Positions 14,205 to 19,118 of a stretch of 64,000 bases of DNA are shown in pieces (within the stretch, counting starts at the first letter, position 1; each line of letters begins with the position of its first letter). This stretch comes from Tardiphaga robiniae (GTDB lineage Bacteria; Pseudomonadota; Alphaproteobacteria; Rhizobiales; Xanthobacteraceae), in contig NZ_JABMCJ010000090.1 in assembly GCF_013359755.1 (NCBI RefSeq), positions 1 to 64,000 on the forward strand. The letters run 5' to 3'. A model generated the notes under the pieces. The model made no database searches, had not been told where the DNA came from, and saw nothing but the letters and a program-made list of their open reading frames with translations. A program made the position numbers and the translations under genes.

Positions 14205-15749
14205 CTAGGCAGACGCCTTTTCGCTCTTCGGCCAGTACTTGTCCCGCAAATGGCGCTTCACCAGTTTGCCGGTCGGCGTGCGTGGCAGTTCGGCCTCGAA
14301 GTCGATGCTCTTGGGGCATTTGATCGGGGACAGATGCTTGCGGCAGTACAAGATCAATTCGGCCTCCAGCGCCTTGCCGGCGCGGCTCATGTCGTGCGGC
14401 TGCACCACGGCCTTGACCTCTTCGCCCATCTCCTCGTTCGGCACGCCGAACACCGCAACATCGGCGATGTCCGGATGCGTGATGAGAACGTCCTCGGTCT
14501 CCTGCGGATAGATGTTCACGCCACCGGAAATAATCATGTAAGACTTGCGGTCGGTGAGGTAGAGGAAGCCCTCGTCGTCGAGATAGCCGACATCGCCGAG
14601 GGTGGACCAGCCGCGCGCGTTATAGGCGCGCTTCGTCTTCTCGGGATCGTTGTGATAGCTGAACTGCGGCGTATCGGCGAAATACACCGTGCCGATTTCG
14701 CCGGTCGGCGCTTCCTGGTCTTCTTCATTGACGATCTTGACGCTGCCGACCACAGCCTTGCCGACGGTCCCGCGATGCGACAGCCACTGCTGCGAGTTCG
14801 ACACGGTGACGCCGTTGCCTTCGGAGCCGGCGTAATATTCGATCAGGATCGGTCCCCACCAGTCGATCATCCGCGCCTTGACGTCGACGGGGCAGGGGGC
14901 TGCGGCATGGATCGCGCCGTTCAATGAAGAGACGTCGTATTTCAAACGGACTTCATCAGGCAGCTTCAGCATGCGGACAAACATGGTTGGCACAAGCTGC
15001 GACTGGGTGATCTTGTGCTTTTCGACAAGCTTGAGGAATTCCTCGGCGTCGAAATGCTCCATGATCACCGACGTGCCGCCGAGCGTGATCGCCATCATGT
15101 TAAAACGTAACGGAGCCGCGTGATACAGCGGCGCCGGTGACAGATAGATCGAGTCCGATGTCATGCCGCACATGTTCGCGCAGAGCAGCTTCAGGAACGG
15201 ATTCGGCACGTCGATCGGATTGTTCTCCGAGGCGCGCTTGATGCCCTTGGGGCGGCCCGTCGTGCCCGACGAATACAGCATGTCGTAGCCGGCAACCTCG
15301 TCGGCAATCGGCGTGGCGGGCTGAGTGGCGAGGGCGGTATTCCAGTCGCGGAAACCGGGGCGCGAACCGTCGACGATATAAAACATTGGCTCCGCGGCGT
15401 TGGTAATCAGCGGCGCAACCACATCGGCGCATTTCTCGGAAGTGATGACGACCCGTGCGCCGCAGTCTTTCACGATATAGGCGATTTCGTCCTGCGTGAG
15501 GTAGCGGCTGATCGCCGTGTAATACAGCCCGCTGCGCTGTGCAGCCCAGCAGATCTCCATGAAGTCGAGGCGATTCTCCATCAAGAGCGCGATGTGATCG
15601 CCGGCCTTCAGGCCGAGTGAGCGAAACAACTGCGCGCCGCGGTTGGAGCATTCGTCGAGTTCGCGATAGCTGAGCGCCTGGCCGGAGCCGGCCATGCGGT
15701 AGGCAATCTTGTCGGGACTGGTCTTCGCGTGAATCGACGGATGCGTCAT
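14205..15749 (-). CDS. Fatty-acyl/aryl-CoA ligase (AMP-binding)
   Basis: An adenylate-forming CoA ligase of 514 residues that activates a carboxylic acid as acyl-AMP, then thioesterifies it. The P-loop-like motif YSSGTTGRPKGIKR is near residue 165, the YYAGSEGNG segment (A5) near 300, and A7/A8 are at GDVGYLDDEGFLYLTDRKSYMIISGG; the catalytic Lys is in PRTPTGKLVKR near the C-terminus. The substrate is not readable. AAGGAATTC precedes the chosen ATG (MTHPSIHAK). It follows the thiolase gene in the same direction after a 210-base gap containing a palindromic repeat, so co-transcription is possible but uncertain. Confidence 0.9.
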   Translation of the reverse strand: MTHPSIHAKTSPDKIAYRMAGSGQALSYRELDECSNRGAQLFRSLGLKAGDHIALLMENRLDFMEICWAAQRSGLYYTAISRYLTQDEIAYIVKDCGARVVITSEKCADVVAPLITNAAEPMFYIVDGSRPGFRDWNTALATQPATPIADEVAGYDMLYSSGTTGRPKGIKRASENNPIDVPNPFLKLLCANMCGMTSDSIYLSPAPLYHAAPLRFNMMAITLGGTSVIMEHFDAEEFLKLVEKHKITQSQLVPTMFVRMLKLPDEVRLKYDVSSLNGAIHAAAPCPVDVKARMIDWWGPILIEYYAGSEGNGVTVSNSQQWLSHRGTVGKAVVGSVKIVNEEDQEAPTGEIGTVYFADTPQFSYHNDPEKTKRAYNARGWSTLGDVGYLDDEGFLYLTDRKSYMIISGGVNIYPQETEDVLITHPDIADVAVFGVPNEEMGEEVKAVVQPHDMSRAGKALEAELILYCRKHLSPIKCPKSIDFEAELPRTPTGKLVKRHLRDKYWPKSEKASA

Positions 15750-15825
15750 GGAGAATTCCTTGGTGTTTCCTCGAAGACCGGCGGATTTTTCCGCTCGTGG
15801 TGTGGTTTGGTAGGCTCTCTCAGTT

Positions 15826-15941
15826 GTCATCCCCGCGAAGGCGGGGATCCATAACCTCCTTCAGTTGAGATGGCACGCGGCGGCCTCCGCGTTCTTGCTA
15901 TCTCGATCGAGAGTATGGGTCCCCGCCTTCGCGGGGACGAC
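15826..15941. repeat. Intergenic palindromic repeat (CCCCGCGAAGGCGGGG type)
   Basis: Two arms face each other: GTCATCCCCGCGAAGGCGGG on the left and CCCGCCTTCGCGGGGACGAC on the right, each itself a hairpin, around a 60-base centre. Such elements are dispersed between genes in Bradyrhizobiaceae. Related elements are at 34815, 37392 and 51574. Confidence 0.8.
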
Positions 15942-15960: not shown

Positions 15961-17133
15961 TTACAACCGCTCCACGATCGTCACATTGGCCATGCCGCCG
16001 CCTTCGCACATGGTCTGCAGCCCGTAGCGCTTCTTGTTCTGCTGGAGCGCATGGACCAGCGTGGTCATCAGCTTGGTACCGGAGCCGCCGAGCGGATGGC
16101 CGAGCGCGATGGCGCCGCCATTGACGTTGAGGCGCTTCGGGTCGGCGCCGGTGGCCTTCAGCCAGGCCGTCGGAATCGAGGCGAAGGCTTCGTTGACTTC
16201 GAACAGGTCGATGTCGTCGATCTTCATTCCGGCCTTTTCGAGCGCGCGCTTGGTGGCGGGCAGGGGCGCTTCCAGCATGATCACGGGATCGCCGCCCATC
16301 ATGGTCATGTGGTGGATGCGCGCCAGCGGCTTGATGCCGAGTTGCTTGAGGCCCTTCTCGTTGACAACCATCACGCCCGACGCACCATCGCAGATCTGGC
16401 TGGCGGATGCTGCGGTGAGCTTGCCGTTCTCGGCGATCAGCTTGACGCCGCGAATGCCGTCGAGCGTCGCATCGAAACGGATGCCCTCGTCGATGTGATG
16501 GGTGTCCACGGAGCCATCGGCGCGGGTGATCTGCAGCGGGATGATTTCGTCCTTGAACCGGCCGGCCTCGGTCGCCGCAATAGCGCGCTGGTGGCTCTCG
16601 AAGGCGTATGTGTCGAGGTCATCCTTCGACAGTCCGTATTTCTCGGCGACCATCTCGGCGCCGGTGAACTGGCTGAACTGGATGTTGGGATAGCGCGCTT
16701 CCATGCCGGGGCTCTTGTAGTGGCCCATGCCGGCCTTGGACGCGAGAATGCTTGGCGAGCCCATTGGCACGCGGGTCATGCTCTCGACGCCGGCGGCGAT
16801 CACGATATCCATGGAGCCGGCCATCACGGCCTGGGCGGCGAAATGCAGCGCCTGCTGCGATGAACCGCACTGGCGGTCGATGGAGGTGCCCGGCACGCTT
16901 TCCGGAAGCTTCGAGGCCAGCACCGCGTTGCGCGCGACGTTGACCGCCTGCTCGCCGCCCTGGCCGACGCAGCCCATGATGACGTCCTCAACCGAGGCGG
17001 GATCTGCGCCGGTGCGTTCAACCAGCGTGTTCAAAACCGAGGCTGCGAGGTCGGCCGGGTGCCAGCCGGCTAAACGCCCGCCCTTGCGGCCACCAGCGGT
17101 GCGTGCAGCGGCGACGATATAGGCCTCGGCCAT
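15961..17133 (-). CDS. Acetyl-CoA acetyltransferase (thiolase)
   Basis: Thiolase of 390 residues. The acylated Cys is in DRQCGSSQQALHFAAQ near residue 90, the NEAFA motif near 325, GGAIALGHPLGGSGT near 350 and the C-terminal acid-base Cys in CEGGGMANVT. It would cleave a 3-ketoacyl-CoA or condense acetyl-CoA. Its divergent partner is a TetR regulator and the nearby genes are beta-oxidation enzymes, so a degradative role is likely. A promoter with TTGACT and TTAAAT spaced by 17 bases lies about 60-90 bases upstream. Confidence 0.93.
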   Translation of the reverse strand: MAEAYIVAAARTAGGRKGGRLAGWHPADLAASVLNTLVERTGADPASVEDVIMGCVGQGGEQAVNVARNAVLASKLPESVPGTSIDRQCGSSQQALHFAAQAVMAGSMDIVIAAGVESMTRVPMGSPSILASKAGMGHYKSPGMEARYPNIQFSQFTGAEMVAEKYGLSKDDLDTYAFESHQRAIAATEAGRFKDEIIPLQITRADGSVDTHHIDEGIRFDATLDGIRGVKLIAENGKLTAASASQICDGASGVMVVNEKGLKQLGIKPLARIHHMTMMGGDPVIMLEAPLPATKRALEKAGMKIDDIDLFEVNEAFASIPTAWLKATGADPKRLNVNGGAIALGHPLGGSGTKLMTTLVHALQQNKKRYGLQTMCEGGGMANVTIVERL

Positions 17134-17192
17134 GCGTGATCTCCCTTTTTTGCCTTGTTTGGCGGCGTTTTTCGTGGCGTTGAATGCGCGGG

Positions 17193-17221
17193 ATTTAAGT
17201 GTCCGCGGAGAGTTTAGTCAA
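17193..17221 (-). promoter_or_regulatory. Sigma70-like promoter of the thiolase gene, with possible TetR site
   Basis: Reading the minus strand, TTGACT and TTAAAT are separated by exactly 17 bases, placing the start of transcription about 50 bases before the thiolase ATG. The -35 overlaps a repeated GTCAAT (GTCAATCGGTCAATTAAC on the plus strand), a plausible site for the divergent TetR regulator. On the plus strand TATTAT at 17258-17263 may be the regulator's own -10. Confidence 0.5.
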
Positions 17222-17274
17222 TCGGTCAATTAACTCTTGAGTGCGGCCGATTGTTCGTATTATCTGCGCTCCGA

Positions 17275-17940
17275 ATGGCACCGACTTTGAACCCCAGCAC
17301 CTCTGTGAAAACCGCCGCTGCCCGTAATCCGACGGCCGACAAGCTGTTGCTCGCGGCGAGCGAGCTGATGATTGCCAGCAACTCCATCGAGGTGTCGCTG
17401 AGCGAGATTGCGCAGCAGTCCGGGGTCAATGCGGCGCTGGTGAAATATCATTTCGGCAACAAGGACGGCCTGCTGCTGGCGCTGCTTGCGCGCGACGCCG
17501 CCACCGAGATGACCAATCTGGAATATCTGCTGGCGCAGCCGATCTCGGCCACCGCAAAACTGCGGCTGCACATCGCCGGCATCATCAAGGCCTATTACCA
17601 GTTTCCCTACATGAACCGGCTGATCCACTACTTGCTGCATGAGAGCAGCAACGAGGCAGCCGATGAAGTATCGAAGTTCTTCGTGGGGCCGCTGCTCGGC
17701 TTCCATCGCCGACTGCTGGCAGAGGGGCTCGACTCCGGCGAATTTCGCAAGGTCGATCCGGTGCTGTTCTACACCAGTTTGATCGGCGCCTGCGACAACC
17801 TGTTCTTCAGCCGTCATGCCATGTCGCGCGCCATTGGCGTCGGCCCGGTGACCGATGAAGTCTGCCGCGACTACGTCGCCCATATGGAAGCGATGCTGCT
17901 CGGCGGGATCCTCACAAACAAGAAGGCCGCCAAGGCCTGA
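17275..17940 (+). CDS. TetR-family transcriptional regulator
   Basis: A 221-residue DNA-binding regulator. The N-terminal helix-turn-helix (residues 15-65) includes SLSEIAQQSGVNAALVKYHFGNKDGLLLALL. The C-terminal part is the ligand-binding and dimerisation domain, which resembles fatty-acid or aromatic-CoA responsive members in its length only. The ATG giving MAPTLN is chosen; an upstream TTG has no support. Divergent from the thiolase gene and upstream of the SDR-hydratase-ligase-dehydrogenase block, it probably controls one or both, with an acyl-CoA as likely effector. Confidence 0.9.
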   Translation: MAPTLNPSTSVKTAAARNPTADKLLLAASELMIASNSIEVSLSEIAQQSGVNAALVKYHFGNKDGLLLALLARDAATEMTNLEYLLAQPISATAKLRLHIAGIIKAYYQFPYMNRLIHYLLHESSNEAADEVSKFFVGPLLGFHRRLLAEGLDSGEFRKVDPVLFYTSLIGACDNLFFSRHAMSRAIGVGPVTDEVCRDYVAHMEAMLLGGILTNKKAAKA

Positions 17941-17956
17941 CATCACGAGCTCAGAA

Positions 17957-18156
17957 GAAACGGCCCAAGGAAAACTGCCAAGAAAATTCAAAAATGTCGG
18001 GAAACGCCCAAGGAACTAAATTCAAGAACCAACAATAAGAAACGCCCAAGGACCAGTTCCAAGAACAACAACCAAGAAAACGCCCAAGGACCACTTCTTC
18101 TTTTTCTTCTTCGTCGCGACTCAAGAATTCAAGAAACGATCAGAAACGCCCAAGGA
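17957..18156 (+). repeat. Leader with five GAAACGCCCAAGGA-like motifs
   Basis: The 228 bases between the TetR stop and the SDR start are unlike the surrounding DNA: A-rich and G-poor on the plus strand, with five copies of GAAACGCCCAAGGA or one-base variants at 17957, 18001, 18039, 18076 and 18143. CAAGAA pieces lie between them, and one pyrimidine run CTTCTTCTTTTTCTTCTTCG is at 18094. The last copy supplies the AAGGA in front of the SDR ATG. Copy spacing is irregular (44, 38, 37, 67), so it is not a CRISPR or simple tandem repeat. No reading frame crosses it. Confidence 0.75.
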
Positions 18157-18168
18157 AAGGCTCTATCC

Positions 18169-18927
18169 ATGCAGTTGAAAGACGTAGCCGTATTCATCAC
18201 CGGCGGTGGTTCGGGCCTCGGTGCCGCGACCGCACGCGCGATGGCTGCCAAAGGCGCCAAGGTCGCCGTGTTCGACCGCGCGCAGGACAATGCCGAGAAG
18301 GTCGCTGCCGAAGTTAAGGGCGTTGCCACCGTCGGCGATGTCACCAGCGAGAGTGACGTGAAGGCGGCGCTCGCCAAGGCAGCGGCTGCGCATGGTACCG
18401 CGCGCGTGCTGATGAACTGCGCCGGTATCGGCGGTTCGCAGCGCATCGTCGGCAAGCAGGGCGTTTATCCGCTCGAGAAGTTCACCAATGTCATCATGGT
18501 GAACTTGATCGGAACCTTCAACTGCCTGCGTCTGTTCGCCGAGCAGCTTGCCACCGCCGAACCGATCGGCGAGGAGCGCGGCGTCATCATCAACACCGCC
18601 AGCGTCGCCGCCTATGAAGGCCAGATCGGCCAGATCGCCTACTCCGCCTCGAAGGGGGGCGTTGTCGGCCTCACGCTGCCGGCTGCCCGCGATCTCGCCT
18701 CCAGCAAGATCCGCGTCAACACCATCGCGCCGGGCCTGTTCCTGACGCCGCTGCTGATGGGCCTCAACGAGGAAGCCCGCGCCAGTCTGGGCGCGCAGGT
18801 GCCGCATCCGGCCCGCCTCGGCGACGCCTCGGAATACGGCAACCTCGCGGTCCACATCGTCGAGAACCCGATGTTGAACGGCGAAACCATCCGCCTCGAC
18901 GGCGCCATCCGTATGGCGCCGCGGTAG
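18169..18927 (+). CDS. SDR 3-hydroxyacyl-CoA dehydrogenase-like (HSD10 type)
   Basis: A 252-residue SDR that by similarity of layout would oxidise a 3-hydroxyacyl-CoA with NAD. The cofactor motif is TGGGSGLGAAT, then the NCAG motif, the catalytic Ser in NTASVAAYEGQIGQ and the Tyr-Lys in AYSASKGG; the C-terminus ends RLDGAIRMAPR. It is a clear paralogue of the SDR at 43.9 kb, which has the same first residues (MQLK) and the same end (RMAPR). The start is preceded by AAGGAAAGG from the last motif of the unusual leader. First gene of the hydratase/ligase/dehydrogenase block. Confidence 0.9.
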   Translation: MQLKDVAVFITGGGSGLGAATARAMAAKGAKVAVFDRAQDNAEKVAAEVKGVATVGDVTSESDVKAALAKAAAAHGTARVLMNCAGIGGSQRIVGKQGVYPLEKFTNVIMVNLIGTFNCLRLFAEQLATAEPIGEERGVIINTASVAAYEGQIGQIAYSASKGGVVGLTLPAARDLASSKIRVNTIAPGLFLTPLLMGLNEEARASLGAQVPHPARLGDASEYGNLAVHIVENPMLNGETIRLDGAIRMAPR

Positions 18928-18933
18928 TACTTG

Positions 18934-19118
18934 TCTTCTTCCCCTCGTAGCCGCGCGCCGCGGGAGAGGGTGCCTGAGCAAGCGAAGGCGGGAGAGGGCT
19001 CGTTGTGGCACCCCTCTCCCAAGTGAGTTTGTTTCTAACTCCTGCGCTGCCCTCTCCCGCAAGGGGAGAGGGCGCGGCAATGAGCGTCGGCAAGGCGCCA
19101 ACGAGTGAAACGGGAGAG
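18934..19118. repeat. Dispersed intergenic repeat, CTCTCCC/GGGAGAGG family, copy 1
   Basis: Alternating CCTCTCCC and GGGAGAGGG arms with Gly/Arg-codon-like filler, able to form several hairpins; the TGCCTGAGCAAGCGAAGG segment recurs inverted in copies 3 and 4. The right end GGGAGAG serves as ribosome-binding site for the hydratase gene that starts six bases on. Confidence 0.75.

Follow-up and report, generated by a model that had tools for sequence, protein, structure and literature searches.

The stretch of DNA analyzed here (the window) comprises 64,000 nucleotides from Tardiphaga robiniae. It contains a gene on the forward strand (18169–18927; PF00106) for a short-chain dehydrogenase/reductase (SDR) that is similar to type II 3-hydroxyacyl-CoA dehydrogenases and is the presumed regulated gene. 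Its best relatives of solved structure are named short-chain dehydrogenase/reductase, Rv1144 and 3-hydroxyacyl-CoA dehydrogenase. A gene for a TetR-family regulator (PF00440, PF14514) lies upstream on the same strand at 17275–17940, with its start chosen in our analysis. The SDR cluster further includes thiolase, enoyl-CoA hydratase and acyl-CoA ligases, one of which is divergently transcribed from the reverse strand (14205–15749, with the start reassigned to the ATG at 15749). Given this similarity and these neighboring genes, a link to acyl-CoA and storage metabolism would make sense. Intergenic palindromic repeats of the CCCTCTCCC...GGGAGAGGG and CCCCGC...GCGGGG types are located beside the cluster at 18940–19080 and 15860–15930, and similar repeats come after the SDR gene in several relatives.

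The TetR stop codon and the SDR start codon are separated by a 228-nt leader (17941–18168, forward strand), which we consider a candidate array of sites for the small RNA MmgR. A preliminary description of this region had claimed five near-identical motifs in the leader, and we found them on the forward strand as one variant and four near-exact copies of GAAACGCCCAAGGA. Copy 1 (17957–17971) reads GAAACGGCCCAAGGA, with one inserted G; copies 2 (18001–18014), 3 (18039–18052) and 5 (18143–18156) are exact; and copy 4 (18077–18090) reads AAAACGCCCAAGGA. The copies are irregularly spaced, as had been described, but the start-to-start distances are 44, 38, 38 and 66 nt rather than the 44, 38, 37 and 67 given earlier. 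With this spacing, and with spacers unlike each other, the array is neither a tandem repeat nor a CRISPR, in agreement with the preliminary description. Its view of the leader as A-rich and G-poor was equally accurate: the leader contains 40.4% A and 17.5% G, compared to 18.6% A and 31.4% G in the whole window. Copy 5 occupies positions −26 to −13 relative to the SDR start. It had been taken for the ribosome site of the SDR, and it does end only 12 nt before the ATG; however, a second purine run, AAAGG, is situated 8 nt ahead of the ATG, a more favorable position for a Shine-Dalgarno sequence, so that the earlier assignment holds only in part.

How unusual the array appears depends on the stringency of the comparison. 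The exact 12-mer occurs four times in the leader, a count also obtained in 34 of 20,000 dinucleotide shuffles, perhaps owing to low-complexity runs. When up to three mismatches are allowed, the whole window contains nine matches, and 10 of 100 shuffles reach this number; with up to two mismatches, the genome of the strain contains 51 matches to the motif and 48 to the reversed motif. Since these loosely matched counts are not unusual, the signal resides in exactness and clustering. In the same genome, the exact 14-mer is confined to the three exact leader copies and two small-RNA genes, and the exact 13-mer AAACGCCCAAGGA has six matches, compared to one for the reversed control. The bipartite pattern GAAACG, 0–4 bases, CAAGGA is matched ten times in this genome, comprising four matches in the leader, two in the MmgR genes and four elsewhere (C3:111254, C6:307434, C7:301100 and C83:161783). 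The last four may be due to chance, as the reversed control has six matches.

Other features of the leader were also considered. Its predicted folding is somewhat weaker than that of shuffled versions (z 1.48, with 189 of 200 shuffles equaling or exceeding it). Rfam covariance models detected no leader element or riboswitch at the gathering score in the window or in the corresponding loci of five relatives, and a collection of plasmids contained no match to the leader. A promoter scan of 17100–18300 revealed no sigma-70-like site, a result that is uninformative as the shuffles average 0.6 sites. A 14-residue upstream reading frame starting from the ATG at 17994 was rejected because this codon reads ACG in three relatives (G001, G005 and G016). 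The preliminary description had also proposed that a pyrimidine run pairs with the purine-rich parts of the leader. The run is found in part of the genus and is missing from the rest, and we rejected it as a general partner of the repeats.

A more specific partner is suggested by the motif itself. The 14-mer GAAACGCCCAAGGA is the exact reverse complement of the conserved core of the alphaR8 small RNA MmgR (Rfam RF00519), and its two places outside the leader in this genome are both MmgR genes. Each of these genes carries the complement of the motif on the RNA strand, ahead of a terminator-like hairpin, and Rfam assigns both loci to RF00519 (suhB/MmgR) with 71.2 and 61.8 bits, well above the gathering score of 41; the leader and its cognate alphaR8 small RNA are thus encoded in the same genome. 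The first gene adjoins a gene for N-formylglutamate amidohydrolase (PF05013), the neighbor beside which most alphaR8 genes are located according to PMC12559287. The second (L203 4256–4329, reverse strand, corresponding to C83:247755–247828) is surrounded by phage major head, head-tail connector and tail genes, and is therefore probably prophage-borne. Similar DNA was detected in five records of phages (Bradyrhizobium, three; Microcystis, two), and the exact 22-nt alphaR8 core occurs in at least 100 viral stretches of IMG/VR.

RF00519 was detected in 36 of 37 genomes of the family, the one miss being a genome that is 74% complete, and the alphaR8 core is identical in all 34 of the small-RNA copies read, which were the best-scoring ones. 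The number of RF00519 matches varies within the genus of the window, with four each in G014 and G017 and one in other genomes. The complement of the alphaR8 10-mer, AGGGAGGAAA, occurs three times in the 6.3 Mb of this genome, twice in the MmgR genes; its rarity may be compositional, since the reversed pattern does not occur at all. MmgR is Hfq-dependent in S. meliloti, and the genome studied here encodes Hfq as well as a PhaR-type regulator (PF07879). PhaR is reported to bind the mmgR promoter in S. meliloti (PMC12542648), MmgR to limit polyhydroxybutyrate storage in the same species (PMC7143759, PMC12559287), and the alphaR8 family to occur throughout the Alphaproteobacteria except the Rickettsiales (PMC12559287).

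The restriction of the exact motif to SDR leaders and alphaR8 genes extends to related organisms. Sixteen genomes from nine genera contain 61 exact 14-mers, 37 of them in SDR leaders, 22 in alphaR8 genes and two in other places, compared to none for the reversed control. Of the 24 non-leader matches, 22 were read, and by sequence 20 of them belong to alphaR8 genes and two (G272 C26 and G171 C2) do not; Rfam confirmed 16 of the 18 non-leader loci submitted, with the same two negative. The remaining non-leader matches coincide with RF00519 positions, and these are four of those read (in G001, in G033 and two in G010) and two others (in G022 and G010). The exception in G171 is the leader of an acyl-CoA ligase in the same gene cluster. 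In G272 the exact motif at C26:191257–191270 (locus L356) lies outside the SDR leader and any MmgR gene and is possibly another MmgR target. Had the motif been absent from close relatives or scattered over genomes, the proposal of a regulatory leader made in the preliminary description would have suffered; for exact copies the opposite was found. A scan of a genome collection for two exact copies returned 24 stretches, two of which are Rhodopseudomonas SDR leaders and three of which belong to the genus of the window (G001, G002 and G005). The remaining 19 come from other organisms; in each, the match lies within an open frame of 124 codons or more, as would be expected of coding repeats. One viral contig also carries two motif copies, which appear in or beside coding sequence.

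A possible second MmgR-like site, GGAAACACCAAGGA, is located in the window at the ribosome-binding site (RBS) of the divergent acyl-CoA ligase gene (15757–15770, reverse strand; −30.5 kcal/mol). Twenty loci were taken for comparison, in three of which the ligase start was not found. The site spans both motif halves in the window and in four of 17 relatives (G001, G005, G171 and G080), and is full in G171 and near-full in G080, a member of genus g64 that has no SDR site. G011 and G255 score similarly through incomplete or displaced matches, and the match is weaker in the remaining 11 relatives.

Repeated GGA-containing sites, one of them at the RBS, are what is expected of a target of the RNA-binding protein CsrA, whose motif CANGGA is resembled by the CAAGGA of the copies, and a CsrA-like protein was among the readers proposed in the preliminary description. 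This proposal fails on the gene content: CsrA (PF02599) was found in none of 41 genomes, including that of the strain, although three of 14 control genomes were positive. We consider the chance that CsrA or a similar RNA-binding protein accounts for the array to be close to negligible.

We compared the leaders of SDR orthologs across the family. An ortholog at E 1e-105 or better is present in 101 of 296 family genomes, and the leaders of 92 were covered; the nine genomes left out belong to g50 (eight) and g52 (one), and the leader of G250 ends at a contig end. The genus labels g1 and g52 denote Tardiphaga and Rhodopseudomonas, and g49 is a genus with mostly a single site. Allowing up to two mismatches, a copy was found in 61 of the 92 leaders and two or more in 36, with none in 31; the reversed motif was found in no leader and the reverse complement in one (G017). 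In 57 of the 61 copy-bearing leaders a copy starts 25–39 nt before the start codon, which means that complementarity of 14 nt or more near the RBS is conserved. All 18 Tardiphaga leaders carry copies (1–4 each), as do all 15 of Rhodopseudomonas (2–8), both of g6 (6 and 9), the one of g70 (9) and both of g20 (1–2). In g49, 23 of 26 leaders have one copy each, at −26 to −30 or at −38/−39. No copy within two mismatches was found in the leaders of g50 (0/14), g64 (0/7), g67 (0/3), g69 (0/2) and g17 (0/2), all of which are genera with RF00519.

Counting by pairing, with wobble and gaps allowed, gave a similar distribution: 2–5 sites in Tardiphaga, 2–8 in Rhodopseudomonas, 8 and 10 in g6, nine in g70, 1–2 in g20 and at least one in 25 of 26 g49 leaders, one of which has two. 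A single match was obtained for nine of 14 leaders in g50, one of seven in g64 and one of three in g67. In shuffled leaders the mean is 0 to 0.53 such sites per genus, and 1.0 in g70. This count superseded an energy threshold of −17 and a fuzzy regular-expression count, both of which proved to be poor measures of copy number. In 91 of 92 cases the leader is preceded by the TetR gene on the same strand, the other leader being cut at a contig end, and the gap to TetR is 1.2–1.3 kb in g50, g67 and g69. When these three long-gap genera are omitted, copy number increases with mean leader length (Spearman 0.97 over eight genera); longer leaders raise the number of chance matches too, though to fewer than observed. 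The mostly single-site state of g49 looks like the simplest one and may be ancestral.

The rise of copy number with leader length is what segment duplication would produce, and it raises the question of whether only the copy at the RBS works and the upstream copies are inert remnants. The apparent sufficiency of one site in g49, and the variation of copy positions between genera, would also fit such relics. The conservation of the upstream motifs argues against them: across 18 aligned Tardiphaga leaders the motifs have stayed intact while the spacers diverged, with an identity of 0.79 in motif columns compared to 0.52 in spacer columns, although the contrast is small in the five closest leaders (0.90 and 0.83). 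Moreover, R. palustris JSC-3b and R. faecalis retain eight upstream copies each, none closer to the start than 158 nt, and have no copy at the RBS. Taken together, we regard inert upstream copies as unlikely. Simple RBS blocking, for its part, does not fit three Rhodopseudomonas leaders in which the RBS is free of copies and the nearest ones are at −158, −158 and −71 (the last in G236).

The sequence variation among the copies was compared with the small RNA. In 143 distinct copies, the fit to MmgR by Watson-Crick or wobble pairing is at least 94% at positions 1–13, 85% at position 0 and 6% at position 14; the first of these figures are inflated because the copies were picked with up to two mismatches in the 14-mer. 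Raw variants at positions 3–12, uncorrected for ancestry, comprise 42 that preserve the pair and 18 that break it, and at positions 3, 6, 7, 9 and 10 all 42 of 42 variants retain a wobble pair. Counted once per genus, positions 3–12 have 14 preserving transitions, four breaking transitions and six transversions. As a pattern in sequence this would favor RNA pairing but is suggestive only. The g49 sites extend the complementarity past the 14-mer: 19 of 23 fit MmgR at 22–24 of 26 nt, only 14 of these positions having been used to find the sites. Seven of the sites read AAGTCTAGAGAAGAAACGCCCAAGGA (24 of 26), 12 fit at 22 or 23 positions and four at 16–19; the last copies of the Tardiphaga leaders fit at 15–21 of 26. 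The commonest g49 form has two mismatches, which are located in the anti-Shine-Dalgarno stretch and avoid a strong GGGAGG.

These data bear on two further explanations. The preliminary description had proposed standby ribosome sites, and tandem Shine-Dalgarno sequences that collect ribosomes, with no small RNA involved, would be in line with the AAGGA in each copy and with a G-poor, weakly folded leader. They leave unexplained, however, the conservation of the GAAACGCC half of the motif and its match to MmgR. ACGCCC, which belongs to the most invariant part, has to our knowledge no role in ribosome binding, and the exact motif hardly occurs anywhere other than in the leaders and MmgR genes; standby sites are accordingly very improbable. 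The other explanation places the function at the DNA level, as an operator array for the neighboring TetR protein or another regulator, since direct repeats adjoin a regulator gene. The motif is non-palindromic, irregularly spaced and located after the TetR stop, and many of its variants keep RNA wobble pairs, and we give this reading very little credence.

The predicted duplexes are −24.4 kcal/mol for copy 1, which pairs with a 1-nt bulge, −32.7 for copy 2, where complementarity to MmgR covers 15 nt, −28.3 for copy 3, −25.9 for copy 4 and −31.4 for copy 5. In three g49 leaders, the duplex reaches −47.2, −49.4 and −50.0 kcal/mol over 45 nt. With 32-nt windows, g49 reaches −45.4 at best, and among 66,600 background windows drawn from 400 kb of the strain's genome the best value is −36.4. 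As 184 of these background windows reach −28, and other windows within the 64 kb reach −32, the energies of the five copies are unexceptional on their own. We did not accept duplex energy by itself as proof, and the case for pairing rests on exactness, repetition and conservation. The predicted accessibility of the 14 bases, as the probability of being unpaired, is 0.002, 0.004, 0.13, 0.029 and 0.032 for copies 1–5, compared to a median of 0.0025 for the leader region and 3.9e-5 for a stretch of the SDR coding region. Copy 3 is the most accessible of the five, and copies 1 and 2 are not above the leader median.

On these grounds we propose, with a probability of about 0.86, that the leader copies are pairing sites for MmgR and that the SDR messenger is a multi-site target of this RNA, a proposal derived from sequence. 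Folded alone, MmgR is predicted to form a 5-pair hairpin with a UCCUU loop, so that the AAGGA of a copy can nucleate there. Each copy would pair with UCCUUGGGCGUUUC, which consists of the loop and 3' arm of hairpin 1 and the first single-stranded part of the core; AAGGA would make the first contact at the loop, and pairing would then open the short hairpin. That hairpin 1 must open counts against this scheme, as does the involvement of no more than part of the 10-mer core employed in Caulobacter. By prediction, the window copies pair with UCCUUGGGCGUUUC(C) and thereby with only part of the 10-mer UUUCCUCCCU of MmgR, while the g49 complementarity does cross this 10-mer, with mismatches. Pairing at copy 5 would cover nucleotides shortly before the SDR start and thereby block translation, and repression of the SDR by this route is probable. 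The preliminary description had named an Hfq-like protein as a possible reader of the motif; Hfq is indeed encoded, but would act as a chaperone and probably not as a specific reader.

What the upstream copies contribute is less certain. Located in the A-rich leader, they could bind further MmgR molecules, leading to more capture and repression of the SDR mRNA, and such cooperative capture is a tentative proposal. With similar reserve we suggest that they titrate MmgR from other targets when the SDR mRNA is abundant. A decoy array titrating a small RNA had already been considered in the preliminary description. This option comes close to the evidence, in that every copy complements MmgR perfectly or nearly so; titration as such is presumed. 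By sequence, the sites could compete with target pairing, because they overlap the UUUC of the core and several are present per molecule. The array might even be primarily a sponge that soaks up MmgR upon transcription of the TetR-SDR operon and frees its other targets, with SDR repression secondary. The up to 8–10 sites per leader exceed what repression should need, the two Rhodopseudomonas leaders with eight distant copies point in the same direction, and an alphaR8 sponge, CrfA, exists in Caulobacter. We nevertheless find this primacy rather doubtful, as an RBS copy is so widespread among the copy-bearing leaders (all 23 in g49 and 57 of 61 overall) and a sponge would need abundant mRNA. 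With the SDR messenger as a multi-site MmgR target, both the target and the sponge role may be true.

We infer that the leader is transcribed, that pairing takes place in the cell and that site number proceeded from one to many. It is conceivable, though we hold it only tentatively, that the leader is a natural small-RNA sponge array. On this view, a single MmgR site at the RBS would have been amplified stepwise in several genera until 800 nt carried around ten copies, and the repressed messenger would have become a stoichiometric sink connecting fatty-acid oxidation with a carbon-storage small RNA. The leader is a strong candidate for a direct pairing partner of MmgR; the accessible parts of PMC7143759 and PMC12559287 name no direct MmgR target or pairing. 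Natural variants with 0, 1, 2–5 and up to 10 sites exist, and repression, cooperativity and sponging would therefore be separable in one system. The leader may show a path from small-RNA target to sponge, and a sponge array would be a bacterial counterpart of multi-site microRNA sponges.

Among known systems, MmgR of Sinorhizobium and SisA-D of Caulobacter are the closest: the RNA matching the array is a clear member of RF00519 with the same amidohydrolase neighbor. The Caulobacter alphaR8 RNA SisA is described in PMC12559287 as repressing a target by pairing near the start codon, which fits the array site near the SDR start. The reported alphaR8 pairing uses the 10-mer UUUCCUCCCU, while the array would use the loop and arm of hairpin 1 plus UUUC, a pairing surface that the accessible parts of the alphaR8 literature (PMC12559287, PMC7143759) do not describe. 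Searches of the open-licence literature brought up no report of this SDR leader, nor of any natural mRNA leader in which sites for one small RNA form an array. What sets the leader apart from known small-RNA targets and sponges is the amplification of its sites and the surface of MmgR with which they would pair. CrfA of Caulobacter has been shown to bind alphaR8 small RNAs, as the leader is predicted to do, and carbon metabolism is involved in both; CrfA, however, is a separate small RNA that pairs by a G/A-rich stem loop, whereas the 1–10 sites described here are within an mRNA leader. The chbBC intercistronic decoy for ChiX in enterobacteria likewise would be matched as a sponge between genes of an operon mRNA, but it offers essentially one site and the array also reaches an RBS. 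The CsrB/RsmY RNAs, with many short repeated sites that titrate the protein CsrA, share with the array the presence of many repeated sites on one RNA; the array differs in matching a base-pairing RNA, in genomes where CsrA was not found.
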